Under the pieces are notes generated by a model. The model did no database searches. It worked only from the letters and a program-made list of their open reading frames with translations, and was not told the DNA's origin. A program made the translations under genes and the position numbers. Shown piece by piece: positions 13,601 to 57,419 of a stretch of 64,000 nucleotides of DNA. This DNA comes from Lepas anatifera (taxonomy: Eukaryota; Arthropoda; Thecostraca; Lepadidae). The stretch spans positions 310,001 to 374,000 of the forward strand of contig JAOTON010001129.1 in assembly GCA_034440635.1 (NCBI GenBank). The letters are read 5' to 3'. The first letter of the stretch is position 1, and every line of letters begins with the position of its first letter.

Positions 13601-16600
13601 TCTGCAGCGTGCCCCGCTCACCTGTAAGCCACGTCGTCCCAGGTCTGCAGCGTGGCCCGCTCACCTGTAGGCCACGTCGTCCCAGGTCTGCAGCGTGCCC
13701 CGCTCACCTGTAGGCCACGTCGTCCCAGGTCTGCAGCGTGCCCCGCTCACCTGTAAGCCATGTCGTCCCAGGTCTGCAGCGTGCCCCGCTCACCTGTAAG
13801 CCACGTCGTCCCAGGTCTGCAGCGTGCCCCGCTCACCTGTAAGCCACGTCGTCCCAGGTCTGCAGCGTGGCCCGCTCACCTGTAGGCCACGTCGTCCCAG
13901 GTCTGCAGCGTGCCCCGCTCACCTGTAGGCCACGTCGTCCCAGGTCTGCAGCGTGCCCCGCTCACCTGTAAGCCATGTCGTCCCAGGTCTGCAGCGTGCC
14001 CCGCTCACCTGTAAGCCATGTCGTCCCAGGTCTGCAGCGTGGCCCGCTCACCTGTAGGCCACGTCGTCCCAGGTCTGCAGCGTGCCCCGCTCACCTGTAG
14101 GCCATGTCGTCCCAGGTCTGCAGCGTGCCCCGCTCCCGTTCGTACGCCGCCCACAGCTGGTACACGCCCTCGGGCCAGTCCACCGTCCGCTCCAGGGCGC
14201 GGCCGAACAGCTTCCGCAGCTGCGCGCCGCTGCCGAACCGCCTGCCGCCGCGCCGCACACGCCGTAACACAGCCGTAACACAGCCGGCTACGGGGTGCCG
14301 TCTGTTGCTCATTGTTACATAAACATATTGTAGGTACAACAAGCAGTTACTGCGGCTACTTAGCAGCGTTAACTCCCCTCGCAACGAAGAGAAAATGCTT
14401 CATATCCTCACAAAATACTGATAAATATTAGCCACTCTGCGCTGATGGTTTTGGTTTCTGATAGTTACTCTGCGAGTACAAGCGTTGTAACGACAGACAC
14501 CCACAGGCGCAGATCTCTGATTAACTACATAAACAGTCGGTGAAGACAAGTTCTCTTACTGCACGAGCTGTAGGTACTGGAGCCACATTTGGGCGCTTTT
14601 GTCGTGGCCCTGGCTCATGATGTCGTTCCAGAGGGCGATGGCCTCACTCAGGGCGCCGTTGGCAGCCTCCAGGCCGGCCCAGTAGCGCAGCAGCACACAC
14701 TCGGGGTCTCCGTCCAGCCCAAACACTGCCGGCGCACCGGCGCACCTCACTGCCGACGTCACTGACACGGGCCAACCTGACCAGGACACACTCGGGGTCT
14801 CCGTCCAGCCCAAACACTGCCGGCGCACCGGCGCACCTCACTGCCGACGTCACTGACACGGGCCAACCTGACCAGGACACACTCGGGGTCTCCGTCCAGC
14901 CCAAACACTGCCGGCGCACCGGCGCACCTCACTGCCGACGTCACTGACATGGGCCAACCTGACCAGGACACACTCGGGGTCTCCGTCCAGCCCAAACACT
15001 GCCGGCGCACCAGCACACCTCACAGACTCCGGCCCACACTGCCGACGTCACCGACACAGACCAAACACTGCCGGCGCACTGGCGCACCTCACTGACTCCG
15101 GCCAACACTGCCGACGTCACTGGCACGGACCGACACTGCTGACGTCACTGGCACGGGCCGATACTGCCGGCGCACCAACGCACCTCACTGACTCCGGCCC
15201 ACACTGGAAGACACTGCCGATTAAGCGTCACTGACACGGACCTAACACTGCCGACGGCACTGGCACGGACCAACACTGCCATCACTGGCACGGACCAACA
15301 CAGACGTCACTGAGTTGTTGTTGTTTGGGGTTTTAGGGCGCCTCGACTGCAAGGTCATTTTGCGCCCATCTTAGTGTAAAAGAGCAAAAATTAGTGGTAG
15401 TCAGCAGTAACCGTTCGAAACATATCGAGAATGAAAACTAAGTGGATCAGCCAAAAACTTATAATGTGACGAACCAATTACCCAACACTGACTAGGTCTC
15501 CCAGCTCCTGCCGTCGAACATTTCAGATACACACCAGACTGGACGCGTGTTCCACTCTGCTGGTGGTTTGGCCATTCGTTCCGGGTATCTGAGACCCTTA
15601 GGCGGAGAGCGACGCACGAAAGTAGTGTCCCTATCCATGTAGGCCTCTCTGACTCTCGGCCCCGGATGCCTACCATCACTAGCGGGGATGGGCCCGGCAC
15701 ATCCTGCCAGACGTGCTGGACGTTTCCTATACTCTCGGTGGAGCCCGAGTGCAGCCTTGGTTGAGGAACCTCTTTTGTACCCTCGGTACCGCAATTCGCT
15801 TTCCCTTTGAATCCCGAAACACCAAATCTGTTTCCTATTCTCTGTCTTGGGATTTTCTTTCCTCGAAACGTAAGTTTGGAGAGGAGAGCCTGTGCTATCC
15901 TTCGTTAGTTAGTTATTTGGGCTTAAGGGGCGCACCAGCCTGGCAAGGCCATATAGCGCCCAGAACAGTACAGTCGCTAAAAGTGTTCCATCTGGAACAA
16001 GAAGAACGCCTGATTCAGAGACTCATTACCCCTTTCGGTGTCAATACTTCGCTGTGCGGGTGAATGGCAAAGCAAACAGAGAAGTGCACACACTACTAAC
16101 ATCAGTCCCTCCTGCACTGAAAAAAACCGACACCCCACAAGATCCACCAGGTAACGCCGCGCAGAGAGCGCCCGGCACGAGGCGTCGGGGCGTCAGTTCC
16201 GACGCCCACTCCTGTACCCCGGACCCAGGGGGCCCGGGAGTACGGGGAGTCCCTGAGTCCGCCCGGGCGCCCAGCAAACAGCTGGGCACCCAGGCGGACT
16301 CCCCTGCGCTGCCCCCTACGGAAGACGAGCGCAAGCCACATTTTCATGTGATCCACGCCCGCCCCCGCCGGACGGCAGTGTAGTCCCAGCATGGGGCGTG
16401 AGACTCCACAGGGGGGAGTCGGGCGCTCCGCGCCAGGCAGCCCTCCGCGCAGCGTCACCCGGAGGACCCCCAGGGTATGTGCACAAGGCATTAGGCTACA
16501 GTGTGCCAAACAGTGTTCATCTGAGATCCTCACAGAGCATGTTGTGCTTAACCAGGGTCATAGATGATTCTAAAATTGATGGCCTTCAGGAAAGTCAGCA

Positions 16601-19600: not shown

Positions 19601-22600
19601 GTCTCGGCAAATTAGAATAACAGGGTAGTGGTCACTGCCCAACGGGTCACTATGGGTTGACCACTTAAAGACAGGAGCCAATTCCGGACTACACAGACTG
19701 AGGTCAATGGCTGATTCGCGGCCCGAGGGCAAGGTTATGTGCGTGGCACTGCCGGTGTTTAAAACGCATAAGCTTTCGTCGGCTATAAAAGCTTCGAGGT
19801 AGCGACCCCGAGTGTTAGTACTTCTACATCCCCATGTAGTACCATGTGCATTAAAGTCTCCCAATAGGAGAAAAGGCCGGGGTAGCTCTGCCACCAGCAG
19901 AGAAAGCTCCACGCGGGGCATGTCAACCCCTGGAGGTACTGTGCTTTCCTTCATGGGTGCCTGTGCTCAGGTGGTCCCTGCCTGTTGCTTTAGCGGGAGG
20001 TGTTGGTGGAGGCGGGGGTGGTGGAGGGTACGGCGGCGGCATTAGCCCCGTGTCCCCGCGACCTGGAGATGAAACGGCTTCACCACGCACCTTGCGCATA
20101 CGACCCTTTGGAGGCGCCGACGAGGACCACTCTGACCCATACCGCTTGGTAACCACGTCTGAGGGTGCTGCTTTGTTCGATTGTATGGGAGTCTGTGGTG
20201 TTGAAGATTTGGCGGTGACAGGGGTGGATACTGTAGTTTCTGGTTGTTTGTGTGTGGATCCTAAGCTGCGAGCCGAAGCAGGATGTACCTCTGTGCCCGA
20301 AGAACTAGTATCTGTTTGATTGACTCGTGCGCGTTTTGCTGCAGGATGATCTTCCCACTGTTTTGCTGCTTTCTTAGTCTCAGTCACTGGCTGTATTCCA
20401 TACTTCTGTCAGCTCCTGCATTGTCCTTGGAAGAAACTAACCGTTGTTGTTGTAGTGTGACGTGCGCTACCGTTAGGGGTTCTTTGGCTGTGGACGTCTG
20501 AGCACCCCTTTCGGTTGTGTGGTTGCTCAGATCCTGACACAGACGTCACTGACACAGATCAACACTGCCGACGTCACTGGAACGGACCAACACTGCCGAC
20601 ACACGTCACAGACACGGACAAATACTACAGACACAAGTCACTGACGCGGACAAATACTGCGGACACACGTCACTGACGCGGACCAACACTGTAGACAGAC
20701 GTCACTGGCGCGAACCAACATTCAATAAGGTCTGCCCGCAAACATCACCGAGCAAGACCAAAACTAACGGCGTATCGTATCCCAAGACCAACACCAAGGA
20801 CAGCAGTGACAAAACTCGTCAGGCGGCACCAGCACGGTGGGCGCGGCTCAGTTCCTCACTCTGCGCCAGGTGTTCGCACGCCTTGTTGAACTGTTCTCGC
20901 ATGCTGAGCAGCAGGTCTGCGCTTTTGACGCCGTCGCGGGTGAGGCGGCGGCGGTAGTGGTCGAGCCAGGCCAGCCACACCAGCAGGTAGTCTCCAGCCG
21001 CCTGCAGTCCGGCCGCCAGCGCCCGCGACACCAGCTCTGTACGCAGGCAGGTCCGGGGTCACACATCGCACTGCACCCACCCCGGGCCAACCTCGGCGCC
21101 CGCGACACCAGCTCTGAAGGCAGGCAGGTGCGGGGTCACACATCGCACTGCACCCACCCCGGGCCAACCTCGGCGCCCGCGACACCAGCTCTGTACGCAG
21201 GCAGGTCCGGGGTCACACATCGCACTGCACCCACCCCGGGCCAACCTCGGCGCCCGCGACACCAGCTCTGTACGCAGGCAGGTCCGGGGTCACACATCGC
21301 ACTGCACCCACCCCGGGCCAACCTCGGCGCCCGCGACACCAGCTCTGAAGGCAGGCAGGTGCGGGGTCACACATCGCACTGCACCCACCCCGGGCCAACC
21401 TCGGCGCCCGCGACACCAGCTCTGAAGGCAGGCAGGTCCGGGTTCCACTGCACCCACCCCGGGCCAACCTCGGCGCCCGCGACACCAGCTCTGAAGGCAG
21501 GCAGGTCCGGGGTCACACACCCCCGGGCCAACCTCGGCGCCCGCGACACCAGCTCTGTACGCAGGCAGGTCCGGGGTCACACATCGCACTGCACCCACCC
21601 CGGGCCAACCTCGGCGCCCGCGACACCAGCTCTGAAGGCAGGCAGGTGCGGGGTCACACATCGCACTGCACCCACCCCCGGGCCAACCTCGGCGCCCGCG
21701 ACACCAGCTCTGAAGGCAGGCAGGTCCGGGGTCACACACCCCGGGCCAACCTCGGCGCCCGCGACACCAGCTCTGTACGCAGGCAGGTCCGGGGTCACAC
21801 ATCGCACTGCACCCACCCCGGGCCAACCTCGGCGCCCGCGACACCAGCTCTGAAGGCAGGCAGGTGCGGGGTCACATACCGCACTGCACCCACCCCGGAC
21901 CAACCTCGGCACCGGCAAAACAGGCAGACATAGGTCCACTGGGAACTATTCAACAAGATATGATCAAAAATTCCGATTCAGAAGGGTTCAGAACTGTAAA
22001 AAAACGAATTTCTAATGAATAATAAGTCTGCTCATAGGCTGAAATATCCGGTGCAGTTTCTTATCGGTGCTATACACGCGCATTTTAGGAGCACAGGGTG
22101 TTACCACGCAGACCTTAAATATTTCACTCATCTGTTTTTCTTTTTAATCTCAATAATATCACGACAATTTCGCGATGAGTTGTGCAAATACCGAATGATA
22201 AGGACTTGCTGCGCCACCTACCCTGCAGCTGTTGGGCCGTGCGTGCGGCCCGCTCGCTGGCGCGGATGTAGGCCTCCCACAGCTGGCCGCTCCAGGGCAG
22301 GTTACGCACCGCCCGCTCGTGCACGGCCAGCGTCAGCTCCGACGCCGGCTTCAGCTCAAAGTCCAGGTAGCGAGTGTAGGCTTGCCACAGCGGCAGCGAG
22401 AGACAGTGTTGTCGCAGCGCCCGCTCGAACACACACTGCACCCGCGCCGGCGTGCCCTCGGCCAGCTCGTGGCGCACGTACTCCTGGTAGACGGCCACCG
22501 AGGCCTCGGCGTCGTCGGCGGCGGCCGCCTGCCGACGACAGACGTCACTGACGCGGACCAACACAGACAACAAACGCCATTGGCCCGTCTCCCAGACACG

Positions 22601-34600: not shown

Positions 34601-37600
34601 ATCGTGTCTTATTGCAATCCCGACTACCGAGTCGGCGCCGCCCGGCCGAGCGAGTGCAGCGGTGCCGGCCCCGCCGCTTGGCTCCACTTACTAGTGTACT
34701 CGGCGACAGCGCGGTCGCACAGCGCCAGCGCGCGCCGCCGGGGCTCCGGGCCGTCCTCACTGGCGTCATCAGCCGCCGCCTCGTCCCGAATCCAGTCCAG
34801 CCACAGCTCTGCCGGGCACAAACACTGTCCAGCCACAGCTCTGCCGGGCACAAACACTGTCCAGCCACAGCTCTGCCGGGCACAAACACTGTCCAGCCAC
34901 AGCTCTGCCGGGCACAAACACTGTCCAGCCACAGCTCTGCCGCATAAACACTGTCCAGCCACAGCTCTGCCAGGCACAAACACTGTCCAGTCACAGCTCT
35001 GCCGGGCACAAACACTGTCCACTCCAGTCACAGCTCCGCCGGGCACAAACACTGTCCAGTCACAGCTCTGCCGGGCACAAACACTGTCCACTCCAGTCAC
35101 AGCTCTGCCGGGCACAAACACTGTCCAGCCACAGCTCTGCCGGCACAAACACTGTCCAGCCACAGCTCTGCCAGGCACAAACACTGTCCAGCCACAGCTC
35201 TTCCGGGCACAAACACTGTCCAACCACAGCTCTTCCCGACACAAACAATGGGGGCATTCCAGGACAAAACGACCAAAAAATATTTCAATTTGACACCACC
35301 ATGTCTAGAAAAAGTCTGAAACTTTGTGTCCGGGGTATTTTTGGGCCAGAAACACGCCTGTGAGAATCTTAGCCTCCTCTGACCAACGGTGACCGAGTTA
35401 TAGCCCGAGGCATTTTCGGGAGGTCACCTTGTAGATTCATGTTTGATGCTTCATAACTCAAAAACGCATTGCCTGATTAACAAGTGATTAAACTCGTCTT
35501 GGACCATATATTATTTTGAAAATAGAAAATTTTGAAATTTTAAAAAAATTTACTTTTAATTCGTTTGACCTTTTCTTTTGTGACCTAGCTTGACCAGTTG
35601 GCGGTTGAAATGGACCTTTCTGACGCCTCAAAAATTTTGCTTCATAAATCATCTTTCGATAAAAATTTTAAAAAATGCCTTCTTGCTTTAAATTCCAAAT
35701 CTTTACCACCTAAGGCAGGTATACAGACGGTTTTTGACCACTGCAGTAGCACAGCTTTATGTTTAGCACTGCAAACAAAGCGATTGCTTTTGGAATCGGT
35801 TGCTTGCAATGATATTGCATTATCTTCACAAAATTTTCATCGTGCAAGTGTCAAAGTGTATGAGAATTAACACGCGCCCACACAGGGGGTGGGCAACCGG
35901 CCTCTTCAGGTTTCCACAGGTAGTAAAAAACATCATCGCCCAGCGCAACCGTACTTCATCTACCTCTAACTCGACATTTTTGCAACTTCTTGCAAAATAA
36001 TTTAGGTAAACTGGCGGGTGGTAGGTACCGTAAATACCGTAGGTCAGCTGGCAACTAGCTGGTGAGAGGGTGACCTAAGGTAGGCAGCCGTCCTTAGGCT
36101 TTGTGGGACGTTCAACTTTGGTTCCTTAATTAACCCTTCGTCGTGGGAGTTGCTCGTTTGCGTGGTGGGGTTGGGGTCTCCGTGAAAAGTTCCTTGATGA
36201 CTCTAGTGAGACTCCGAGTCCTAAAACTGAACTGGGAACAGCTTGGACATGATTTATAGATAAAGAAAAATAGCAGCCATTAAAAGTGATAGAAAAAGAT
36301 ATATTGTTTCGAGGGAGACGAGGGCAAATGAACTTATTAGTAACGGGTTATTTAGCCTTCCACCCTTAAACAAAAATTTACAAAGATGTCGCGAATTTAT
36401 CAATAATTTAAATAAGTATAACTTATCCTGTAAGCACCACTAACTCACACAATTACTTTGTTCCCGGAGATGGAAAAATAGTTTTGATACAAGGTGACTC
36501 AGTGAAGCACAGCATACGTTTGAGAGGATTCATACAATGTAAAAAGAGTGTCTAAAGGCATTCATTCCCAGGGGGTAATTTGAATCTGCTCATATATGCG
36601 ACCAAATGTTGTTCTGAAATCATAACGCGTTCGACTTGGTCACTTGAACAGGGTGCCTTACATAATATTTTTAAAAGGTGATTATTTTATAGCCGACACT
36701 GCTCCCAGTTCAAACACCACTTCAAAAGGCTTTTTATTTGTGTTTTTTAATGATTAGGGGTGGAAAAATTTGAAACAATATCGAGAGCCACTACGTGAAA
36801 ATAAATAGCAAATTGTATCATGCCCTCTCACAGGCCGTTCAAATTGCATTGAACCAAGAAGTAGTGCTTGAAATGAAAAAAGAGAACATTCAAAGGATGT
36901 TTTACCATTTTTACCACTGTTTCCACGTTTCATTGGAGGTGTTCGAGCACCCACAAATAGGTATAATTCCACACTCCTGGTGCCTTGTGTTATCATTGAA
37001 GAATAAGGGAATACACTGAGATGACTTCAATACTGACCCTGACTTTGTCCTGCACAAACACATTCATTCACCTGCAATGATGGCCGTCAGATCACTCGTT
37101 ACTTAAGCCAAATAATCTATACCAGTATATTTAATATTACCTTTGTATTGGACATTCACCAGGACTAATTTTCGATCATTCACGCAGCACTCATAAAAGA
37201 AAGTCTTCTTGCACAACACGACACTGTTTGATTCAAACATAGGTATACGAAATCCGAACCTCTCTTCCTTTGTTTGTAGATATTTCATGAACAGTGATGG
37301 ATGGCTTATTTATCGCTGGTATTCCATGAAACTTTTGATTCATTTTTCTATAATTGCATTGGCGAACAGACTTTGGAGCTGCCTGGCAACATTGGCTATG
37401 CTTGATTGTGGAATATGCAAGAACTTAATCGTGCTGAAAAATGTATGCGTACGAAAAGCATATGTGCCTTTGGTATCACGTATTTGATCTTTCACTGGAC
37501 TTTTTAAACCATCGTGATATGTTGCTGGTTTGGCCGTGCTCTCGATATAGTCGCAGGCGCCCTTGCTGTGAGACGTAGTGAAAACGCTTCATTCACATTA

Positions 37601-38100
37601 TTGAATTTTGTTTCGATATAACTTTTTACTGGAATTAAACCTTTGCATTGCTTTAAAATCGTGTGAATGGCAGCACAATTTGATGTAGTTAATATTTTTG
37701 CATTGTGCAGCACAGCTCTCCGTCAGTTGATGTACATTCTTCAGTCATTTCTCTCGCTTTCATGCTCCAGGCATAAGTTCTGAAGAAAAAACACGAGCCA
37801 TCGCAGGCTCCGTGATATCACACAGGCTCTGTGGCCGAATTGTTGGTTACCTCTGCTGATCAGTAAACCATGAAGAATGAACAGTGCACTGAGAGCGCCG
37901 GCGCCAAATAGCCCTTTTTAATCTCTACCGACAATGTTACACACAATCTTTTGGTCGGGTCACCCTTGAGGCCGCTCGAGATCAAGGTATTCCTCACAAG
38001 AACACAGTAAAAACCTAAATTTTGTGGCATAATAGCTGACAGAGCAGAGCCGTATAAAATGTTTTAGCGCTATTGAAATGCTCTTGTCCTGCCCGATCGG

Positions 38101-38144
<44 letters not shown>

Positions 38145-38195
38145 TATTATTATTATATTATTATAGTAAGTATTATTATATTATATCATATTATA

Positions 38196-38242
<47 letters not shown>

Positions 38243-38253
38243 ATATATATCTA

Positions 38254-38286
<33 letters not shown>

Positions 38287-41200
38287 ATAATAATAATTTT
38301 GTCAAGTCAAATTTCAGAATTAACCTGCTTTGACCCAGAGCCGGGCCTAGGTCTGTATGGTAAAAAGAATATTAATCAAACTGCAGTGGAAAGTCAGACA
38401 CGGCAACGTAAAAATAAAACCTCCATACCAATTCTCGACAATTATCAATTCTCGCAAGTTATCAAAATTTACCAATTGCCCCATGCATTTCTAATGGAAA
38501 GATCGTGACCTTGTCCCAGGTGATCGATATGGAAATCCTGGTACGAACAATCATATTGCCCGTTGACCTTACAATGTGATGTGAATCTAAGTACGATAGG
38601 TTAAATTTGATCTTCATGATACACCTCCAAAGTTTTTTCCAGGTTAGGTCTCTTGACCGGGGTTGACGGTCAGACCTGATATGACCCAAACCTAAAATGT
38701 TGACAGAAGCTGCAAAAATGTCGAGTTAGAGGTAGATCAAGTACCGTGGCACTGGGCGATGATGTTTTTTTTACTACCTGTGGAAACCTGAAGAGGCCGG
38801 TTGCCCACCCTCTCGCGTGGGTGCGTGTTGATTCTCATAATATTTGACACTTGCACGATGAAAATTTCGCAAATACAATGCAATATCATTGAAAGCAACC
38901 GATTTCAAAAGCAATCGCTTTGATCACGGTGTTAAACATAAGGCTGTACTACTGCAGTGGTCAAAAACCGTCTGCATACCTACCTTAGGTGGTAAAAATT
39001 TGGAACTTATAGCAAGAACGCATTTTAAAATTTTTCATCGAAAGATAATTTAGGAAGCAAAATGTTTGAGGTGTCAAAAAGGTCCATTTCAACTGCCAAC
39101 AGGTCAAGTTAGGTCACAAAAGAAAAGGTAATAGGTATAGGAAAAGGTAAAAGGAATAGGTATAGGAAAAGGTAAAAGGAATAGGTATAGGAAAAGGTAA
39201 AAGGTAAAGGAAAAGGTCAAAATTTTTAAAGTTTTCTTTTTCAAAACAATGTATGGTTCAAGACGACTTCAATGATATACAGAACTGGTTCATCAGGCAA
39301 TGCGTTTTTGTGTTATGAAGCATGAAGGATGAGTCTACTAGGTGACCTCTCAAAAATGCCTCGGGCTATAACTCGGTCACCGGTGGTCGGAGGAGGCTAA
39401 GATTCTCACAGGCGTGTTTCTGGCCCAAAACTACCCCGGAGACAAAGCTTCAGATTTTTTCTAGAAATGATGGTGTCAAGCCTTGGTCAATCTGTCCTGG
39501 AATACCCCAATGTTCAGCTACAGCTCTGCCCGGCACAAACACTGCACAGCCACAGCTCTGCCGGGACAAACGCTGTCCAGCCACAGCTCTGCCGGGCACA
39601 AACACTGCCCAGCCACAGCTCTGCCGGCACAAACACTGCCCAGCCACAGCTTTTCCGACACAAACTCTGTCCAGCCACAGCTCTGCCGGGACAAACACTG
39701 TCCAGCCAAAGCTCTGCCGGGCACAAACACTGACCAGCCACAGCTCTGCCGGCACAAACACTGTCCAGCCACAGCTCTGCCGGGAACAAACACTGTCCAG
39801 TCACAGCTCTGCCGGGCACAAACACTGCCCAGCCACAGCTTTTCCGACACAAACTCTGTCCAGCCACAGCTCTGCCAGGCACAAACACTGTCCAGTCACA
39901 GCTCTGCCGGGCACAAACACTGCCCAGCCACAGCTTTTCCGACACAAACACTGTCCAGCCACAGCTCTGCCGGAACAAACAATGTCCAGCCACAGCTCTG
40001 CCTGCCACAAACACTGTCCAACCACAGCTTTTCCGACACAAACTCTGTCCAGCCACAGCTCTGCCGGCACAAACACTGCCCAGCCACAGCTTTTCCGACA
40101 CAAACTCTGTCCAGCCACAGCTCTGCCGGCACAAACACTGTCCAGCCAAAGCTCTGCCCGGCACAAACACTGTCCAGTCACAGCTCTGCCGGGACAAACG
40201 CTGTCCAGCCACAGCTCTGCCGGGCACAAACACTGACCAGCCACAGCTCTGCCGGCACAAACACTGTCCAGCCACAGCTCTGCCGGCACAAACACTGTCC
40301 AGCCACAGCTCTGCCGGCACAAACACTGTCCAGCCACAGCTCTGCCGGGCACAAACACTGTCCAGTCACAGCTCTGCCGGGCACAAACACTGCCCAGCCA
40401 CAGCTTTTCCGAAACAAACTCTGTCCAGCCACAGCTCTGCCGGGCACAAACACTGTCCAGTCACAGCTCTGCCGGGCACAAACACTGCCCAGCCACAGCT
40501 TTTCCGACACAAACACTGTCCAGCCACAGCTCTGCCGGAACAAACAATGTCCAGCCACAGCTCTGCCTGGCACAAACACTGTCCAAACACAGCTCTGCCT
40601 GGCACAAACACTGTCCAACCACAGCTCAGCCGGCAACAATCAGTTCAGCGTTCTGCCGGGCCAGCCGTCCCCCTGCTGCCTCTCACATAACGTCAGCCGT
40701 CACCCTGCTGCCTCTCACGTAACGTCAGCCGTCACCCTGCTGCCTCTCACATAATGTCTGCCGTCACCCTGCTGCCTCTCAGGTAACGTCAGCCGTCACC
40801 CTGCTGCCTCTCACGTAACGTCAGCCGTCATCCTGCTGCCTCTCACGTAACGTCAGCCGTCACCCTGCTGCCTCTCACGTAAGGTCAGCCGTCATCCTGC
40901 TGCCTCTCACGTAACGTCAGCCGTCACCCTGCTGCCTCTCACGTAACGTCAGCCGTCATCCTGCTGTCTCTCACGTAACGTCAGCCGTCACCCTGCTGCC
41001 TCTCACGTAAGGTCAGCCGTCACCCTGCTGCCTCTCACGTAACGTCAGCCGTCACACTGCTGCCTATCACGTAAGGTCAGACGGCATACCGCCGGCTCTC
41101 ATGTAGTTAGCCGTCACCCTGCTGCCTCTCACGTAACGTCAGCCGTCACACCACCACCCGTCCGATGACATCAACTGTCACTCTATAACCTAGCAGCTGA

Positions 41201-44018
41201 CGTCACACCACCACCTGTCATCTGACAGCAGACGTCACACCACCACCTGCCATCTAACAACTGACGTCACATCACCGCCTGTCAGCTGACAGCTGACGTC
41301 ATATCCCACCTGACCTCACCGCCAGCTACGCCATTCCGCTGGAGCGGGGACAATCAGCATGTGAAAGCTGAGCTTTAGCTTCAGCTGAAGTTTTGTAGCT
41401 TGGAAAAGCACAGGAGCACAAAGGCGTCATTGTATCACTGTTACTAGCCAATACGTTAGCACATTCGGCGGCAGGTGGGTCCGAAACGCTAAAATTACAG
41501 CCCACCATTAATTGAGATGCGCCTAAGAAATTACATGCGGAGGGAATAGGGAATCCACGACTTTCCAATCGTTCATTACATATTTTCTTTTCCTGGAAAA
41601 CAAATAAACTGAAGGGATAGCAGAGAAGCTCCCAATGAGGAGAGGAAATAAATTCGCTGACTATATTAGCAAAATAAAATCATTCGTTTTGTAATCTAGA
41701 ATTTACATCAAAATTGAGCATCCTTTAATTTGAAAGAACGAAAACCGGCTGATACGATAGGCAGCGCCACAAGGAGTAGGCGAGAGGACAGAGGGTGAAC
41801 TCCCCTCCCTGGAATCAGACAATTTACAACAAACTCTTAGGCAGTGACTACAAATACATGGGTATTTTAGCTACTCACCGCGGCCTCTACCAAGACACGA
41901 AAAGAAAATATACATTAAAGTCATCTAAACAAAAGAAAATATTAAAACATATAGGTACAATTGGTTCACAGAGCAATGCACACATATACAATAAAATGAA
42001 GCATCAACATTAGAATATAATTCAGCCACAATGAGCACGAGTTCGTCTTTCTGTACGTACGGGACGGACGTTGCTCAGACCTTGCCTGCACTCACTGGGC
42101 GACAGCGGGGGGGGGACGGACACACTTCCCTCCGGCCCCGTCCCATACTCACCGGGCGACAGAGGAGGGACGGATACACTTCCCTTCGGCTCCGCCCCGC
42201 ACTCACCGGGCGACAGAGGGGGGGGCGGACACACTTCCCTCCGGCTCCACCCCGCACTCACCGGGCGACAGAGGAGGGACGGACCCACTTCCCTCAGGCT
42301 CCGCCCCGCACTCACCGGGCGACAGAGGGGGGACGGACACACTTAGCTCAGGCTCCGCCCCGCACTGACCGGGAGACAGAGGGGGACACACTTCCCTCAG
42401 GCTCCGCCCCGCACTCACCGGGCGACAGAGGGGGACGGACACTCTTTCCTCAGGCCCTGCCCCGCACTCACCGGACGACAGCGGGGGGACGGACACACTT
42501 CCCTCAGGCTCCGCCCCGCACTCACCAGACGACAGCACGGGGGAGGGGGGCAGACACACTTCCCTCCGGCTCCACCCTGTCTCACCGGGCGACAGTGGGG
42601 GAGGGACACACTCCCCTCAGGTTCCGTCCCGCACTCCCCGGGCGACAGTGGGGGAAGGGACACACTCCCCTCAGGTTCCGTCCATTACTCCCCGGGCGAC
42701 AGAGGGGGATGGACATACTTCCCTCAGGTCCCATCCCGCACCCAACGGGTGACAACGGGTGGGGGTGGCGGACACACTTCCCTCAGGCTCTGCCCCGCAC
42801 TCACCGGGCGTCAGCGCGGGGGGCGCGGACACACTCCCTCAGGCCCCGTCCCGCACTCACCGGGCGTCAGCGGGAGGACGGACACACTTCCCTCAAGCTC
42901 CGCCCCGCACTCACCAGACGTCAGCGGGGAGGGGGGCAGACACACTTCCCTCAGGTCCCGTCTCGCACTCACCGGGCGTCAGCGGGAAGACCTTGTTCAT
43001 GTTTTCGCGTGCCTCCTGCAGTACCTGGTGGCTGCCGGCGGCGCGGAGCAGGCCGATCAGACGCACGTGAGTGTCGTAGCTGTAGGGCGCCGCCTCCACC
43101 TGCGGGCCGCGCTAGCCTACGGTCAGACGGCAGGACTGTCGACGGTCACCTCCGGGCCAGCGCGGGCCGGCGGTCAGGCTGTCAACAGCCAGCTGAACGA
43201 CAATGCTCTATCCCGTATCCAACAATATCAACCAGTATAGTCAATCGAAAGACGTGCGATTCAAACCATGACGTCGTAAATTTGCTTAATTAATAAACAT
43301 GCTGATTATTGTTCCTCACTCAACTATTCGTTGATCAGCAGTCCCCCCCTGCGCGAAACATCATCCCTGAATGGGCGCGGGTCGGATGACCAGAGAAAGA
43401 AGCAGCCAAACCAATTAAAGGGAACGTAGAACCTTCACAATAGGATTTGAATGACAATAGCCATGTGATATAGTAGGCTCACTTGGCCGATGTTTCAATT
43501 CTTCCCAGGAATTTTCAATCGGGGAGAAAAAAGCAAACAAAAAACAGCCCCGTCTTACCCGCGTGGTCACGTGATGTAAGGCAGCCTATGGTAGCCACGG
43601 CAAAATGACGTAATGCTCACACCTCGCGGAGCAAACAAGGTAATGGGGCTTTAAAAGCTCCTTAAAACCTATGTGCTAGGCGTGACATTGGTACTTTTGG
43701 TTGTAAATGCGCATAACTTGTTTAAATGACTAACAATTTGACCCAATTTGACAAAATGTGAGCAGTGACTAGCTTAAATGACCAGCAGCAGAAATTCTAA
43801 CAATAGAAAAACATACAAAAACAATGTACATAACCATATGAGCCAGTCGCAAGCAATGAAACTAGTGAAATCGGCCGCCGCTCGTTAACCAACATAGTTA
43901 CCTCTTGCAGGAGTTTGGCAATCTCATCTTCCTCTCCACTCTCCATTGAATCATCGCTGTCTGAACTGTCACTCGACATTTTAGCGTCTTCCAAATTATC
44001 CTTCATATCGAAACCTGT
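4493..44018 (-). CDS. SART3: SART3 / Prp24 orthologue, U4/U6 snRNP recycling factor (14 exons, C-terminus outside)
   Basis: The 14 exons, each listed separately, join with consistent phases into 811 codons. Order: acidic start; HAT tetratricopeptide-like repeats (about residues 36-510) with typical pieces such as WLEFCQLAL, VFERAL and LLWEAYREFEAAL; a Gln/Lys-rich basic stretch (512-584); a Pro-rich linker (585-653); RRM1 (about 670-740, RNP1 KGFAYVEF); RRM2 (from about 762, RNP1 KGLAYVDF, 801-808). This order matches human SART3 (963 residues) without gaps in the HAT region. From the family: the protein binds U6 and U4/U6 snRNA, promotes their re-annealing after splicing, acts in the nucleus and Cajal bodies, and in vertebrates recruits USP4/USP15. 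Missing here are the end of RRM2 and the C-terminal LSm-binding tail. All introns are GT-AG. Many splice sites are embedded in minisatellites that repeat them. Confidence 0.93.
4750..5266. mobile_element. partial copy of a TTAA-flanked MITE in intron 13
   Basis: The stretch matches the right half of the 867-bp element at 57,420-58,286: blocks containing GACCTGACCT, an ATTCGAACCGCAA-like block, AATAAACGCTCTATC-like and CATTTCTAACGG-like blocks, and the end CGCGTG followed by TTAA at 5267-5270. The left half is absent. It fills most of the 711-bp intron 13. The short segment 4,640-4,740 before it holds a small GACAGCAGACACGG tandem repeat. Confidence 0.65.
5338..5479 (-). CDS. SART3: SART3 exon 13: end of RRM1, linker, start of RRM2
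   Basis: The acceptor GCGGCGGCAG and donor AAAG/GTGCGC bound 142 nt that begin in phase 0. The exon encodes AAAEAALQLDRSPVDGRP, matching the RRM1 C-terminal helix and strand (human ALEMDRKSVEGRP), then GFKYSTGRERNKLFVK, matching human FRYSTSLEKHKLFIS, which carries the RNP2 strand of RRM2. One base is left over, completed by exon 14. Confidence 0.93.
5653..5849 (-). CDS. SART3: SART3 exon 12: RRM1
   Basis: The acceptor is GGTGCGGCAG and the donor is ATC/GTGAGT. The 197 nt complete a split Ala codon, give a short acidic lead (DAEKDSR), RNP2 TVFVSNL, and RNP1 KGFAYVEF, ending in phase 0. The minisatellite starting immediately upstream stays open in the same frame, which creates a misleading long ORF running into this exon. 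Confidence 0.94.
5855..7162. repeat. 28-bp minisatellite, intron 11, proximal block
   Basis: About 45 tandem copies of a unit close to GCCGCCCGTGTAAAGTACAA plus GGCACCGC. Variants (GTGCACAG, GTTAAGAA) recur in local groups, so several amplification rounds are likely. The array abuts the acceptor of exon 12, and the unit resembles the 20-30 nt before that acceptor, although the AG itself is not clearly included. Three 28-bp units equal 28 codons, hence long spurious ORFs on both strands. Confidence 0.92.
7163..9339. mobile_element. 2.2-kb DNA element with about 40-bp TIRs, inserted in the 28-bp array
   Basis: Terminal inverted repeats start CAGTGTTCTAA then an S-GGAG block, a CCAAAA block and TGGGGACAT at both ends. 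The element splits the 28-bp array into 5,855-7,162 and 9,340-9,540. No transposase was recognised inside, so it is probably non-autonomous. The CAGTG start would fit a hAT-type end, but no clean target duplication is visible because both flanks are satellite. Confidence 0.72.
9340..9540. repeat. 28-bp minisatellite, distal block
   Basis: About seven more copies of the same 28-bp unit as at 5,855-7,162. They are separated from the main block by the TIR element and end in degenerate copies. Confidence 0.88.
9870..10110. repeat. minisatellite in intron 11 (about 37-bp unit)
   Basis: About six or seven copies of a unit with GACGGTTCCGGGGTCCGTT and CAGACATCCC, alternating with a variant containing CCCATGGTTCCAGGGTCC. 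It lies about 140 bp downstream of the exon 11 donor in gene orientation. No splice-site copy is seen. Confidence 0.8.
10247..10454 (-). CDS. SART3: SART3 exon 11: proline-rich linker
   Basis: The donor AAAG/GTGAGC is clear and leaves one base that fits exon 12. The coding frame gives three GFK/GYK plus poly-proline motifs (GFKPPPPPGFK, GYKRPPPPPPGFK) and then an acidic and Ser/Gln-rich end. The acceptor is less sure: GGACCGGAG/CCC at 10,455 gives phase 0 and 208 nt, matching both neighbours, but the acceptor region is itself duplicated in tandem. Human SART3 has a linker here without this poly-proline motif. Sequence similarity does not establish this exon independently; phase and position do. 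Confidence 0.7.
10690..11075. repeat. short minisatellite (about 20-23 bp), intron 10
   Basis: Tandem units of the form CACGGCCACCGCACATCACA, with an AGGGTCACC variant at the right end, about 17 copies. No splice-site copy was seen. Confidence 0.85.
11076..12702. other. intron 10 body, no gene seen
   Basis: Mostly unique-looking sequence. A plus-strand stretch at 12,248-12,400 could be the start of a LINE ORF1 (MASLGSAGSSKAKPTTRT and so on), but it is short and unsupported. Nothing else was recognised. Confidence 0.4.
12703..12919 (-). CDS. SART3: SART3 exon 10: basic Gln/Lys-rich, nuclear-localisation-like region
   Basis: The acceptor GATCGCAG and donor AAG/GTACCC bound 217 nt that complete the Arg codon of exon 9. 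The sequence YRVRMKRVEAQRAKQAEQE leads into a Q-rich coiled-coil-like stretch, then KKKLKDKEWRKNKRQQLKD. Human SART3 has a corresponding segment (RMKAAEKEAALVQQEEE, then a Lys-rich block) that acts as its nuclear localisation signal. The exon ends in phase 0. Confidence 0.9.
13146..14136. repeat. 43-bp minisatellite carrying the exon 9 donor (about 23 copies)
   Basis: Each unit, read on the gene strand, contains GCACGCTGCAGACCTGGGAC, a GAC-G/ATGGCCTACAG block and the donor GTGAGC. This is the last part of exon 9 plus its 5' splice site. The exon-proximal unit (through 14,095) is the real exon end; the rest lie in intron 9. Copies vary at GGCC/AGCC/AGTC and at CAC/CAT. Confidence 0.95.
14095..14241 (-). 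CDS. SART3: SART3 exon 9: last HAT repeats
   Basis: The acceptor GCGGCGGCAG and donor TACAG/GTGAGC bound 147 nt. They encode RFGSGAQLRKLFGRALERT, then VYQLWAAYERERG and TLQTWDDMAYR, matching human THCRKALHRAVQC, VCEVLLTMERTEG and SLEDWDIAVQKT. The last 41 nt of this exon and its donor are the founding unit of the 43-bp array, so about 22 further donor copies follow downstream. Confidence 0.93.
14560..14725 (-). CDS. SART3: SART3 exon 8: HAT repeats
   Basis: The acceptor CCGGCAG and donor GTGCA/GTAAGA bound 166 nt. They encode MFGLDGDPECVLLRYWAGLE, then IALWNDIMSQGHDKSAQMWL and LQLVQ, matching human FNESGDPSCVIMQNWARIE and MTRGNAKYANMWLEYYNLE. The Met codon is split with exon 7. The first 37 nt are repeated with the acceptor in the upstream 91-bp array. 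Confidence 0.94.
14690..15318. repeat. 91-bp minisatellite carrying the exon 8 acceptor, plus degenerate units
   Basis: Three to four units of 91 bp repeat GGCAG/TGTTTGGGCTGG and the next exon bases up to GAGTGTGT. They are followed (15,020-15,318) by shorter degenerate units with GGCAGTGTTTGGTC and GTCAGTGACGTC. The same degenerate units resume at 20,525, so the LINEs between interrupt one array. Confidence 0.9.
15319..15903 (-). mobile_element. LINE derivative: Gag C-terminus joined directly to the 3' end
   Basis: A minus-strand frame at 15,492-15,794 (open further upstream to about 15,900) ends EMFDGRSWET, identical to the Gag end at 785, so it is the same family. Instead of ORF2, about 110 bp later comes a 3' terminal block GGGCGCAAAATGACCTTGC, a GCGCCC block and an (AAC)n end at about 15,319. 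ORF2 is lacking, so it is an internal-deletion, non-autonomous copy. It is cut at its 5' side near 15,900, where the next LINE ends. Confidence 0.75.
16548..17405 (-). pseudogene. LINE RNase H domain and ORF2 C-terminus
   Basis: The first part reads FTDGSKTRAGVGCSFVVG, SELIAISKAL and IFTDSLSSVQAL, which are RNase H motifs with the catalytic Asp and Glu positions. A frameshift near 17,140 moves to the frame with CWIPSHVGIGGNEAADAAAK. A Cys/His element (CLRCGAPLSVRHVLTSCPGY) follows, then a stop at 16,548. RNase H would remove template RNA after reverse transcription. The frameshift shows it is inactive. Confidence 0.85.
17557..18885 (-). pseudogene. LINE reverse transcriptase domain
   Basis: A 442-residue open frame includes the RT finger and palm blocks: AVIIPVLKPGKSGSDPLHFR, then RPISLTSCLCKLFEKIV, GFRKGRSTVDHLV, AAYDTAW (motif A) and SSLFVDDLAIW (motif C, FVDD), and the thumb region FLGIFLDRRLTYTFHLRKL. 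The catalytic Asp pair is intact in this piece. The frame is separated from the endonuclease and RNase H parts by frameshifts, so the ORF2 as a whole is broken. Confidence 0.9.
19232..19954 (-). pseudogene. LINE APE-type endonuclease domain (C-terminal two thirds)
   Basis: The frame reads LLLGDFNAHGTTWGC, LCVLNTGSATHITLPSG, AIDLSLCSPEL and SDPLGSDHYPVIL, the GDFN and SDH catalytic blocks of LINE endonucleases. A linker with WWSDECRDAIRARR follows. The N-terminal third (with the QET motif) is missing or in another frame, and the following linker (18,954-19,283) overlaps in a different frame, so a frameshift lies near 19,250. Confidence 0.87.
19923..20525 (-). pseudogene. LINE Gag C-terminal remnant
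   Basis: A Ser/Thr/Pro-rich frame (KSSTPQTPIQSNKAAP, KGRMRKVRGEAVSS, and a poly-Pro run) directly upstream of the endonuclease in element order. It has no zinc knuckles, so the 5' part of ORF1 is lost. Identity rests on position and composition only. Confidence 0.55.
20526..20820. repeat. degenerate exon 8-acceptor satellite, upstream block
   Basis: Six to eight degenerate units with GACGTCACTGACGCGGACCA and AACACTGC (read on the plus strand). They continue the array interrupted at 15,318. A small unstructured stretch separates it from the exon 7 donor. Confidence 0.75.
20860..21036 (-). CDS. SART3: SART3 exon 7: HAT repeats
   Basis: The acceptor GCGTACAG and donor GCAGA/GTGAGG bound 177 nt. 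They encode ELVSRALAAGLQAAGDYLLV, WLAWLDHYRRRL and then MREQFNKACEHLAQ, matching human VTFEKALNAGFIQATDYVEI, WQAYLDYLRRRV and LRAAFTRALEYLKQ. Phases at both ends fit. The first 18 nt with the acceptor form the core of the 77-bp array upstream. Confidence 0.94.
21019..21905. repeat. 77-bp minisatellite carrying the exon 7 acceptor (about 11-12 copies)
   Basis: Each unit, on the gene strand, contains GCCTGCSTWCAGAGCTGGTG then TCGCGGGCGCC. This is the acceptor with AG plus the first 18 nt of exon 7, then GAGGTTGGCCCGGGGTGGGT and a filler. Unit spacing is 77 bp between the first two copies. Some copies have internal deletions. Confidence 0.94.
22222..22528 (-). CDS. SART3: SART3 exon 6: HAT repeats (largest exon)
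   Basis: The acceptor GTCGTCGGCAG and donor TGCAGG/GTAGGT bound 307 nt. They encode SVAVYQEYVRHELAEGTPAR, VQCVFERALRQHCLSLPLWQ, then YLDFELK and VHERAVRNLPWSGQLWEAYI, matching human RLAEYQAYIDFEMKIGDPAR, IQLIFERAL and VHNRAIRNCPWTVALWSRYL. This is the best conserved part of the gene. One base remains for exon 7. Confidence 0.96.
22690..23010. repeat. 45-bp minisatellite in intron 5, alternating dimer
   Basis: Seven units of 45 bp, of two alternating types (GCGATCTGTACTGCGACAGA and AATGGTCTGTACTGCGACAG), form a 90-bp higher-order repeat. On the gene strand each unit has CGTCTGTCGCAG/TAC, which resembles the exon 6 acceptor CGTCTGTCGTCGGCAG, but no exon bases are clearly included. Confidence 0.88.
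23348..23548 (-). CDS. SART3: SART3 exon 5: HAT domain, less conserved
   Basis: The acceptor ACAGCCAG and donor AAGCTG/GTGAGT bound 201 nt in phase 0 at both ends. They encode VALLLRRQVRLPLAG, then WSELESWLA and a Q-rich QFQQAQQQLEQLLPLEQKL. Human SART3 at this place has VHSLFRRQLAIPLYD, FAEYEEWSE and NKALQQLEKYKPYEEALL. No array adjoins this exon. Confidence 0.88.
23982..24056 (+). repeat. tRNA-Gly(TCC)-derived SINE head or tRNA pseudogene
   Basis: The anticodon arm (CTTCCAAGCAG, anticodon TCC at 24,016-24,018) and T arm (CCCGGGTTCAAGGCCTGG) follow the tRNA-Gly(TCC) pattern. They include a B box GGTTCAAGGCC (24,033-24,043) and an A-box-like AGTGGCGTGGTCAGCG. The acceptor stem does not pair well, so it is a derived sequence and not a working tRNA. 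The rest of intron 4 (24,060-24,994) shows no recognisable feature. Confidence 0.72.
24995..25182 (-). CDS. SART3: SART3 exon 4: HAT repeats
   Basis: The acceptor GCTGGCAG and donor GCCCAG/GTACCC bound 188 nt. They encode SVEVWLEFCQLALGGLAEED, GAERARAVFERALTAAGLHV and ALLWEAYREFEAAL, matching human NIWLEYGQYSVGGI, VRSVFERALSSVGLHM and ALWEAYREFESAI. The first 23 nt are repeated with the acceptor throughout the 33-bp array of intron 3, and that array is open in the exon's frame for about 450 bp upstream. Confidence 0.95.
25160..27867. repeat. 33-bp minisatellite carrying the exon 4 acceptor, main block (about 80 copies)
   Basis: Each unit on the gene strand is close to GTGTGGAGGTGTGGCTGTAC plus AGTGTACCGACAG, that is, acceptor CAG followed by the first bases of exon 4. 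The units keep an 11-codon frame (GVEVWLYSVPT). Frequent shortened units (ACAGCCTCAACTGTCGGT type) break the regularity. Every full unit contains the 8-bp palindrome CTGTACAG. Confidence 0.96.
27868..30936. mobile_element. fold-back DNA transposon 1 (3.07 kb, 1.25-kb inverted arms)
   Basis: The ends are TAGGGGGGCCCTTTTGGCAA and its complement. The arms 27,868-29,127 and 29,693-30,936 are about 95% identical inverted copies by eye. Both sides are flanked by CTGTACAG (27,860-27,867 and 30,937-30,944). An 8-bp duplication of the form nTnnnnAn and a TAGGG end fit the hAT superfamily. The 565-bp centre holds a possible coding fragment. No complete transposase was seen. Confidence 0.82.
29185..29679 (+). 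other. possible coding fragment in the centre of fold-back element 1
   Basis: An open frame gives FSWDLKLAYLCAKTGYG, ARWYTAQSYLLRLYMS and VLAQYLVCVYVPMTVRIKYE, ending HLAEELRLQR near 29,510. A GTATGT...TTTTGCAG stretch of 38 nt follows. If removed as an intron, the frame continues DSVAKDALMAHTESIILAML and AAAVSKIVSSR. The composition looks protein-like and I have a vague memory of similar uncharacterised element proteins, but I cannot name a family. The arms (28,606-28,995 minus; 29,800-30,199 plus) carry a related open frame in inverted copies. Confidence 0.35.
30937..31284. repeat. 33-bp exon 4-acceptor minisatellite, middle block
   Basis: About ten units of the same 33-bp repeat, isolated between the two fold-back elements. 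Confidence 0.94.
31285..33959. mobile_element. fold-back DNA transposon 2 (2.68 kb, 1.2-kb inverted arms)
   Basis: The ends are TAGGCCATGTCGTGATCACC and its complement. The arms are about 31,285-32,466 and 32,771-33,959, nearly identical in inverted order. They are flanked by CTGTACAG at 31,277-31,284 and 33,960-33,967. The 300-bp centre contains a 14-bp-stem hairpin (32,497-32,536) and no recognisable gene. The arm sequence is unlike element 1 apart from the TAGG start, so these are two different families. Confidence 0.85.
33960..34375. repeat. 33-bp exon 4-acceptor minisatellite, distal block
   Basis: About twelve units, more degenerate toward the right end, closing the array of intron 3. 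About 315 bp of unremarkable intron follow up to the exon 3 donor. Confidence 0.92.
34692..34808 (-). CDS. SART3: SART3 exon 3: first HAT repeat continued
   Basis: The acceptor CCCGGCAG and donor ACTA/GTAAGT bound 117 nt. They encode ELWLDWIRDEAAADDASED, then LALCDRAVAEYT, matching human EELWLEWLHDEISMAQD and YDLFEKAVKDY. The Glu and Ser codons are split with exons 2 and 4 and the phases agree. The first 16 nt recur in the 32-bp array upstream. Confidence 0.93.
34795..35245. repeat. 32-bp minisatellite carrying the exon 3 acceptor, proximal block (about 14 copies)
   Basis: Units on the gene strand read TGTTTGTGCCCGGCAG/AGCT then GTGGCTGGACAG: acceptor plus about 16 nt of exon 3. A 32-bp unit is not a codon multiple, so use of an upstream copy would change frame. 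Confidence 0.95.
36035..36250 (+). repeat. 5'-truncated SINE, second copy of the family at 47,285
   Basis: It shares blocks with 47,405-47,625: GGCTTTGTGGGACGTT and TTAACCCTTCG (TTAACCCTTCA in the other copy), GTGGGAGTTGCTNGTTTG, GTGAGACTCCGA and CTTGGACAT. The tRNA-like head is missing here. Confidence 0.7.
38101..38290. repeat. TA dinucleotide microsatellite with interruptions
   Basis: About 190 bp of nearly pure TA/TAT repeat. The Tyr/Ile ORFs over it are artefacts. Confidence 0.95.
38480..38702. repeat. fragment related to the TTAA MITE family
   Basis: It contains CATTTCTAATGG, a GGTGATCGATATGGAAAT block and a CTTGACC...GACCTGATATGACC block in the same order as 57,940-58,170. Confidence 0.5.
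39510..40645. repeat. 32-bp exon 3-acceptor minisatellite, distal block (about 35 copies)
   Basis: The same unit as 34,795-35,245. A TTTTCCGACACAAACTCTG variant (in place of CTCTGCCGG) alternates in local groups, marking secondary amplification. Confidence 0.95.
40655..41325. repeat. 32-bp minisatellite of a different sequence, then degenerate units
   Basis: About 15 units of GTCAGCCGTCACCCTGCTGC plus CTCTCACGTAAC. From 41,150 they grade into looser CTGACGTCACACCACCACCTG-like units. No splice-site copy was seen. Confidence 0.88.
41326..42070. other. intron 2 unique stretch, nothing recognised
   Basis: AT-richer sequence with no ORF or repeat that I can support. Confidence 0.5.
42075..42985. 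repeat. 50-57-bp minisatellite carrying the exon 2 donor (about 17 copies)
   Basis: Units on the gene strand contain CGCCCGGTGAGTGCGGGGC followed by a GGAGCCTGAGGGAAGTGTGT block. The first part is the last nucleotides of exon 2 (CGCCCG) with its donor GTGAGTGC. Unit length varies through runs of G. The last unit is the true exon-intron junction at 42,972. Confidence 0.93.
42973..43099 (-). CDS. SART3: SART3 exon 2: start of the HAT domain
   Basis: The acceptor GCCCGCAG and donor CGCCCG/GTGAGT bound 127 nt. They encode VEAAPYSYDTHVRLIGLLRA, then ARENMNKVFPLTP, matching human INVYDYNCHVDLIRLLRLEG and MARQKMSEIFPLTE. One base remains for exon 3. Confidence 0.93.
43100..43901. other. intron 1, no array
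   Basis: About 800 bp without minisatellite. It contains CACGTG near 43,567 and TGACGTAA near 43,605, which resemble E-box and CRE sites, but single matches are weak evidence. No gene was seen. Confidence 0.45.
43902..44018 (-). CDS. SART3: SART3 first recognised exon: acidic N-terminus
   Basis: The donor CAAGAG/GTAACT closes the exon in phase 0. An ATG at 44,006 gives MKDNLEDAKMSSDSSDSDDS and then MESGEEDEIAKLLQE, an acidic Ser-rich start of 35 codons like the acidic N-terminus of human SART3 but shorter. A good acceptor (GTCGTTGTTGCAG) lies 12 nt before the ATG, so at least one more upstream exon, untranslated or coding, is likely. A second in-frame ATG is at 43,979. Confidence 0.75.
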
Positions 44019-45568
44019 CTGCAACAACGACAGCGAGCTGAGTCACTGTTTCAAACCGACTGTATATTTTTTTAATGTAGCGCAGACATGGGTAGTGGCC
44101 AGCTAATGCACCTCCTCACTCAATCCTTCCTGGCGTGGGAAGTATATCGAGATAGTTCTATACTCAGGGATGTGGCTATTAGCTCAGTATGATGTCCAGT
44201 CCGGGAGCGGGGACCAAGGTGGGTGATGGCACAAACAAGGAGAGCCCGAGAACAACATTGGTGTGGTAGCAAAGCTAACCACTGAGCTCACCCCACATAC
44301 ATCACCATGCACATCCGAGTGGCGAGGGAGTCCGACGTGTTTGTCAGCTGGAATGCCCAAGGGGTCGTGGGCAAGCGCCTCCTCCCCGCGCGTTACAGTC
44401 AGGCGTTTGTTACCTTGTTCAAGCGGTACAACACGACCATCTCCAGTTGGGCCGCAAAAGAGAGGGTGTCAGCAATAGGATGGAACATTTCGAAAACCGA
44501 GAGCCCCTTACACCCCTAGATCCATGAAGCTAAAAATGTGTGTTGAATACCCACATTTACATTACTCATGGGCGCAACTTTCCAAATATTTGGAGAGGCT
44601 CGAGTCCCACCCATGCTCGGAGAAGCCCCATCAATGAGCCGCTGAGCCCCACAAATCCGGAACCGGGCCCACTTAGCCGACGAAAACTGCCTATGGGTGA
44701 TACAGTTTCTAGATAGGGGAACAGTGACTACGAGGTATGGGGACCCAGTTGTAGCCCCAGGGACCGTTGATAATGGTAGGGGACCCGGTTGGGCCATAGG
44801 GATCCAGGATTATGAGAGGTAGTTTGGCTGCGGCCACCGGAGACCAGCGTTCGTGGAAGTAGGCTGGACCGCAGGAGGTCCGCAATTATGTTCGATCTAA
44901 CACATGTCTTGGGACTTCACAAAGGTATATGAAATACTCAGGGCATTATTATAGTAACCTCTGCATGATAAATCTAGGAATATACAAAAATCACTATCCG
45001 TACAACTTGCAAGTATTAGGTATATGAGAGGCACACAAATGGACGTGAGCACATCGTATTCCGTACATAATGCACGCCATGCTGACCAAACTTGCTTTCA
45101 AAAAAGCGCCTTAAGTCCTCGCGGGCCTCATGGGAACTGGGTCTTCCTGGAGCAATGGCACTCCCGTGTCCAAAAACTGGTTTTACGCGAGAATGCTGAG
45201 CATAAAATTAATATGGAAAATATACATAAGTAAAAATTCAAAAGATACAATAATTGTAAGTTCACACCCTCATTGAAACCCATATTCAAAGTTCAGGGAA
45301 AAACTCGTACATACAATTCTCATAACGACCCTACTTTTGAACAGGGTTGCCAGCTGCAGCCGGCAGAAAGTGGTTTAAACCAGTTTAAGCCGGCTGGCAT
45401 AAACCCAGGTGGCAAAAGTGGCAAACAACTATGAAATACTAAATATTAGCTGTTATTCCCATTGGATATAAATGTAAGGGCACATTCTGGTGTGAAAACG
45501 TATCCTAACGTGTATTGAGAAGCTTTAGCACTCTCTTCTTCCAATTTATCCCGCAACTCCAATGATCT
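44019..45568. other. upstream of SART3, nothing recognised
   Basis: Any promoter and first exon of SART3 would be expected from here rightward. I could not identify a core promoter, a CpG-rich block or another gene. Confidence 0.4.
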
Positions 45569-45576
45569 GCTCAAAC

Positions 45577-45809: not shown

Positions 45810-45817
45810 GCTCAAAC

Positions 45818-47630: not shown

Positions 47631-47829
47631 AACCGGCTGGCGGCAGAAACCCCTCTCAACTGGAAAAAGTGCCAACCCTGCTTTTTAAGAGTGTATGTAT
47701 ATACACCGGGCTTAACGGATTGATTCAACTTAAGTGCAAGGCTTTGGCTGTGTCCAATCAGAACATCATATCTTAAAGTTTCTTTGCATCTTTATTAGCG
47801 CAGGAAAAATTTTATAGGTTGATGTCCCT

Positions 47830-57415: not shown

Positions 57416-57419
57416 TTAA

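Follow-up and report, generated by a model that had tools for sequence, protein, structure and literature searches.

Tandem repeats that span an intron-exon boundary, termed 'mirage' minisatellites, are described in the amphioxus gene Adh3 and globin genes BflGb6 and BflGb9 (PMC3087553), a set to which PGBD5 and troponin C were added (PMC3902484). According to the passages on these genes, the repeats lie at 5' and 3' boundaries, have units of 10-72 to ~160 bp, and are reported to leave splicing undisturbed (PMC3087553, PMC3902484). In the human UBC and VCX3A genes, introns are described within tandem repeats whose AGGT splice sites are dual-specific (PMC10809524). Tandem repeats averaging 30 bp occur in human segmental duplications and, where they fall at exon-intron boundaries, may in that account create new introns (PMC2812944). 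An earthworm metallothionein gene has large intronic minisatellites, which the passages that describe them do not place at exon edges. Within the open-licence literature, titles and abstract openings on barnacle minisatellites and intron tandem repeats revealed no work on exon-edge arrays, and the splice-site minisatellite literature offered nothing beyond the amphioxus, UBC/VCX3A and segmental-duplication works. The human IFI6 (6-16) gene has, at a single locus, a minisatellite with a 12-bp unit that repeats donor-like sequence at an exon end.

Boundary-spanning arrays are present at six exon edges of one gene, SART3, in the barnacle Lepas anatifera. The window, which is the whole stretch of 64,000 nucleotides that was analyzed (positions 310001-374000 of contig G000:C1065 in a 1.04-Gb assembly), includes most of this gene on its minus strand; 14 exons reside there, and two more lie to the left. 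In the gene model, GT follows exons 1-14 and AG precedes exons 2-14. Exon 11 (10247-10582) contains a coding minisatellite of ~32-36 bp in which the reading frame is broken: its start is read correctly in frame 0, and the conserved GFKPPPP run is in another frame. Because of this break, the protein used was the conceptual translation of exons 1-10, which matches human SART3 (5ctq_A) with 352 bits (E 3.7e-104). The closest listed proteins are those of Pollicipes pollicipes and Amphibalanus amphitrite, which share 64% identity with the window SART3 and, over the same columns, 73% with each other. Rfam gave no match over the window. The 20 kb upstream of SART3 (44100-64000) contain no TRF row scoring at least 50, and retrotransposon-like fragments are found there. 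Long arrays on this contig occur inside SART3 and also at 211-260 kb, around two other genes.

The 50 bases around each of 26 internal SART3 exon edges were aligned to the adjoining intron. Junction-spanning copies were detected in the own intron of two donors and four acceptors, with best scores of 59-100; for the same six edges, scores do not exceed 31 against all other SART3 introns or 25 in ten shuffles each. The remaining 20 edges have no junction-spanning array at the threshold of this alignment, and the E14 donor, both edges of E15 and the E16 acceptor have no adjoining array as judged by TRF and eye only. Read in junction register, a unit consists of an exon end, the splice site and part of the intron, with an exon share of 14-37 bases. 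All six array-bearing exons are short (117-188 bases). The exons and arrays are as follows.

42973..43099, minus strand: exon 2, whose donor end forms the opening unit of the E2 donor array
42088..42986, minus strand: E2 donor array, ~53-54 bp unit; 11 spanning copies; 16 units, GT in 13/16
34692..34808, minus strand: exon 3 (gene model)
39511..40635, minus strand: E3 acceptor array, distal block, 31-32 bp unit
34795..35247, minus strand: E3 acceptor array, exon-proximal block; 43 spanning copies at this edge; both blocks 49 units, AG in 41/49
24995..25182, minus strand: exon 4 (gene model)
33959..34362, minus strand: E4 acceptor array, distal block, 33 bp unit
30936..31217, minus strand: E4 acceptor array, middle block
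25201..27867, minus strand: E4 acceptor array, exon-proximal block; all blocks 59 spanning copies by edge alignment, AG in 84/90 full units
20860..21036, minus strand: exon 7 (gene model)
21019..21910, minus strand: E7 acceptor array, 77 bp unit; 11 spanning copies; 12 units, AG in 12/12
14560..14725, minus strand: exon 8 (gene model)
14691..15312, minus strand: E8 acceptor array, 91 bp unit with 4 spanning copies, together with diverged repeats on its upstream side
14095..14241, minus strand: exon 9 (gene model)
13142..14135, minus strand: E9 donor array, 43 bp unit including 37 bp of exon; 22 spanning copies; 23 units, GT in 23/23

A first-pass annotation of this DNA had assigned the gene to SART3 and described six of its exon edges as the terminal units of tandem arrays, at donors (E2, E9) as well as acceptors (E3, E4, E7, E8) and with differing unit lengths. 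The protein match and the edge alignments bear this out, as do the unit lengths (~53-54, 32, 33, 77, 91 and 43 bp from E2 to E9). The annotation's likening of the arrays to the 'mirage' kind also holds, in that 6 of 26 edges have boundary-spanning repeats, both boundary types are represented, and the terminal unit is the authentic boundary. The E9 donor array is mostly outside the interval it gave, 14095..43099.

Further repeats lie elsewhere in the gene, and one of them covers its stop codon.

40662..41149, minus strand: 32-bp array internal to intron 2, away from exon edges
22684..23007, minus strand: 45-bp array internal to intron 5, away from exon edges
20539..20720, minus strand: diverged intron 7 repeat with a relationship to both the E8 array and the acceptor region of exon 6
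10665..11067, minus strand: 20-bp array internal to intron 10
9342..9544, minus strand: distal block of a 28-bp repeat in intron 11 (TRF)
5853..7162, minus strand: 28-bp intron 11 array directly adjoining the E12 acceptor, with exon sequence not clearly included
-23833 to -23525 on the window scale, left of the window on G000:C1065: 27-bp stop-codon array
-24354 to -23971 on the window scale: 50-bp array after the stop-codon array, with repeated GGGTGAGA

The 27-bp array has ~12 copies and begins in the last codons of exon 16, such that the stop codon is inside the first unit. No splice site is involved in this array, which, as a single case, favours the involvement of constrained-sequence edges in general.

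Similar arrangements recur elsewhere in the genome. A search for two AGGTGAGT within 22-52 bases led, among the matches listed, to 15 distinct places on contigs C36 to C135, of which 12 are arrays and three (L036, L045 and L046) are not. Nine of these 12 arrays begin where an open, exon-like frame has its donor, and they copy at least the final 12 bases of that frame (L029, L030, L031, L032, L033, L037, L041, L043 and L044), and three are not at a donor (L034, which starts inside an intron with an exon adjoining, L038 and L042). The AGGTGAGT motif itself favours true donors, and therefore 9/12 reflects recurrence rather than frequency among all arrays. Four of the nine exons are backed by homology: INTS1 (E 9e-10), Indigoidine_A (E 1.3e-18), a PDE5-like exon (E 0.005; E 7e-9 for the preceding exon) and 7tm_1 (E 2.1e-5, below its cut-off); the remaining five are open frames only. 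These nine donor arrays, on other contigs, confirm that more than one gene is involved. At L044 (position 2886, gene strand) and L040, the exon-proximal donor is GC (AAG/GCGAGT), and some inner copies read AAG/GTGAGT.

An ERM-like gene ~83 kb left of the window has one acceptor array among the edges seen, with ~3 copies and a score of 47 versus a maximum of 22 in 500 shuffles. Two exons of this gene, neither of them the array exon, match ERM_helical with E 3e-6 and 4e-5, below the cut-off. The neighbouring gene CTNNBL1 (E 5e-63), whose exons were partly mapped, has no recognized junction array. As a sample not selected for arrays, four exons were read out of 79 myosin-head matches; ~60-200 bases of flank at their eight edges contain no minisatellites, and a TC microsatellite is upstream of one acceptor. 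Myosin copies on G000:C431 and G000:C1554 have near-identical match scores, and their corresponding intervals measure 6298 versus 6295 and 12,022 versus ~4,770 bases, which suggests two haplotypes that differ by a large insertion.

When the terminal copies are taken as splice sites, the conceptual protein aligns without gaps to Pollicipes P0001 and Amphibalanus P0002 at five joints, which cover all six array edges, at ~65% identity with both. Judged from these alignments, the exon-proximal copy is the one yielding the conserved protein, and it is this conservation that points to its use by the spliceosome. Among gene predictions, on which no conclusion is based here, Amphibalanus P0003 carries 15 additional residues where E6 meets E7, and parts around E9 and E10 are missing from both P0003 and P0004. 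Classical in vitro splicing often prefers the site nearest its intron partner, which here is the innermost copy, and this counts against exon-proximal use. Inner copies match the terminal copy across the full 50-base window in E8 and E9 and across 38 bases in E7; the sequence near these junctions therefore cannot mark the used site, and position must decide. We infer that the spliceosome chooses by exon definition. The copies closest to the exon are the more exon-like in E2 (rho -0.53, p 0.04); the corresponding trend is not clear in E9 (rho -0.38, p 0.07), and E3 and E4 have none.

Mobile elements reside within two of the arrays.

35248..39511, no strand assigned: 4.3-kb inverted-repeat element that splits the E3 array, arms ~89% alike, ends approximate
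31285..33959, no strand assigned: hAT-like element inside the E4 array, palindromic with 98% alike arms, CTGTACAG at 31277-31284 and 33960-33967
27868..30936, no strand assigned: another hAT-like element inside the E4 array, palindromic with 96% alike arms, CTGTACAG at 27860-27867 and 30937-30944

Both elements in the E4 array have the identical 8-bp flank CTGTACAG, which is itself part of the E4 unit, and the unit may be a landing site presented many times over. They exhibit 8-bp target duplications and short terminal inverted repeats with ends TAGG/CCTA, which we take to be hAT-like traits. Palindromic arms occupy most of the nested elements. Between the intron 7 repeat blocks, at 15313-20538, is a non-LTR-like retrotransposon with endonuclease-like and reverse transcriptase-like frames recognized by eye.

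We propose, with a probability of about 0.58, that the SART3 arrays are duplications tolerated at the edges of constrained sequence in combination with exon-proximal splicing. The seed would be a small duplication arising by chance where conserved exon gives way to free intron, tolerable to the cell because splicing would use the exon-proximal copy; seeding would not be aimed at splice sites. A duplication could survive where its copies extend outward from a constrained edge, such as a splice site or stop codon, into freely changing DNA. Slippage or unequal exchange would then extend each array on its intron side, and sequence would occasionally pass from one array to another. Exon definition would select the copy joined to the short exon, even where inner copies can match the terminal one in quality and, in introns 6 and 9, would give a much shorter intron. 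Transposons inserting into the arrays would lengthen the introns further. This proposal is supported by the stop-codon array, by the nine of 12 donor arrays elsewhere and by the SART3 edges (6/26 with arrays against none of the other 20), together with the gap-free protein alignment, the splice dinucleotides that are neither lost nor favoured in five arrays, and exon shares of varying length (14-37 bases in SART3, at least 12 at the other loci). The 1.8 of 12 junction arrays expected with present introns count against it, and the numbers are comfortable only for introns of ~100-170 bases at seeding.

The main rival, which had been the first-pass suggestion, is that exon-intron junctions are themselves hot spots of duplication, for example through transcription-linked breaks, R-loops or splice-site repair. 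When arrays are placed at random in introns of present core lengths, 1.8 of 12 families are expected at junctions and six are observed (P>=6 = 9e-4), and on adding three short TRF rows that this set leaves out, seven of 15 are at junctions versus 1.9 expected (P>=7 = 1.4e-4). These P values are lenient towards the hot-spot idea, because SART3 was picked for its arrays, and they depend on ancestral intron length: P>=6 is 0.41 for introns of 100 bases, 0.26 for 120, 0.09 for 173, 0.035 for 222 and 0.01 for 300. The expected number is 3.5-5.2 of 12 for 173-100 bases and 0.9-2.2 for 816-300 bases (P 1e-4 to 0.01). Random duplication within introns could therefore explain six of 12 if introns had 100-170 bases at seeding, though not at 300 bases or more. 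Genome-wide, the donor pattern yields fewer raw pairs than its reversed control (1413 versus 2133), a control that is inflated by an interspersed element and whose pattern also overlaps GTGAGTGG; counting distinct tandem arrays by eye on the listed contigs up to C126 gives 11 donor versus 4 control arrays (one-sided P 0.06). Two more edges, the E2 acceptor and the E5 donor, count for the hot-spot view, each with one diverged second copy (scores 30 and 31), but scores of at least 28 are reached at 10.8% of exon-interior positions and at 1.5% of non-array intron positions. A 2-copy TRF row also crosses the E9 acceptor (14220-14263). An array over a stop codon involves no splice site, and the eight myosin edges are free of minisatellites within ~60-200 bases of flank. 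Strand composition offered a hint of R-loops: all 12 listed window families have a G-rich coding strand (mean skew 0.28 versus 0.03 in the null, p 5e-4), a list that left out the C-rich array 4682-4731; once the omitted rows are included, the skew is positive in 16 of 17 non-exonic window arrays. Across the whole gene, however, only 14 of 20 families are G-rich (p 0.10), and the idea was dropped. Hairpins were also considered; five units folded as DNA gave z from -1.2 to +1.0, which is no signal. On balance, the suggestion that junctions are duplication hot spots is not established, and we regard it as unlikely.

A further rival is that the arrays came from a dispersed satellite, or from an intron-carrying mobile element that brought the splice site. 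One clear relationship speaks for it: the repeat in intron 7 is 82% alike over 51 bases to the acceptor region of exon 6 (fitted p ~2e-7). The E3 and E4 arrays may have a common core (fitted p ~5e-5 among 325 pairs with mononucleotide shuffles), yet the array-array score was also reached by the best of 300 shuffles, and some of the shared sequence consists of exon bases that code for the same Trp-Leu motif in both, so that this relationship appears doubtful. These are the exceptions to a likeness otherwise confined to the own intron (59-100, versus at most 31 in other introns), and no one sequence recurs in many introns of the gene as in an introner-like family. Every unit holds the coding sequence of its own exon, and the units of the nine other loci differ from one another by eye. 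A dispersed source is thus highly improbable, and the earlier statement that the arrays arose independently stands for most of them, with the intron 7 repeat excepted and E3/E4 perhaps related. Selection could maintain the arrays if splice-site copies gave robust splicing or tuned isoforms, and many copies do have intact splice dinucleotides, and the E4 unit, at 33 bp, would keep a reading frame divisible by three. But in five arrays (E8 left out) these dinucleotides are neither lost nor specially retained, lying within ~0.1 of the median dinucleotide, and for that reason selection on decoy sites was rejected. Exon parts of units are not significantly better retained than intron parts in any of five arrays (p 0.08-0.52). 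Only the E4 unit and the exact 54-base E2 units are divisible by three, and other inner copies would often shift the frame, which leaves maintenance by selection scarcely probable. Misassembly comes to mind given that tandem arrays are difficult to assemble and that a frame break is present in the coding repeat of exon 11. It is barely credible as a source of units that are non-identical (TRF matches of 72-98% over the main rows of the six arrays), of two elements with 8-bp target duplications inside the E4 array and a third splitting the E3 array, and of a like arrangement at loci on other contigs.

Returning to tolerated duplication, we advance a broader form of this proposal more tentatively, at somewhat less than even odds. 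Any constrained edge, whether splice site or stop codon, might act as a permanent starting point for the growth of introns and 3' ends by outward copying of the edge; transposons would settle in the copies, exon definition would hide all of this, and intron length would evolve as the exon's own border is copied. The arrays suggest a route for intron lengthening and, following the proposal of the amphioxus authors, for intron origin. They also amount to natural experiments in splice-site choice, with 4 to ~90 competing copies among which the exon-proximal one is probably favoured, to judge from protein conservation. Gene prediction in such genomes should anticipate splice-site decoys.

Mirage repeats were earlier known from a handful of lancelet genes, and they are now found at six edges of one arthropod gene. 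As in amphioxus, to the extent that those repeats are described in the passages cited, the SART3 arrays repeat intron-exon boundaries at donors and acceptors. Unlike the amphioxus cases, they have an arthropod host, are concentrated at six edges in a single gene, reach up to ~90 full units per array, contain nested transposons and are accompanied by a similar array over a stop codon. SART3 shares tandem splice sites with UBC and VCX3A as described, including AGGT at the E4 and E9 junctions, but AGGT is present at only two of the six array junctions and missing from four. Moreover, in the human genes, by that description, the unit is coding and the intron is a multiple of it, whereas the SART3 arrays are within introns of an otherwise ordinary gene. 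About half of the repeats described in human segmental duplications are coding, and they occur in recent paralogues, whereas the SART3 arrays leave the exon unchanged. The SART3 donor arrays resemble the single-locus IFI6 minisatellite in repeating donor-type sequence at an exon end. Against these systems, the arthropod host, the density of arrays in one gene, the stop-codon case and the recurrence on other contigs look new.
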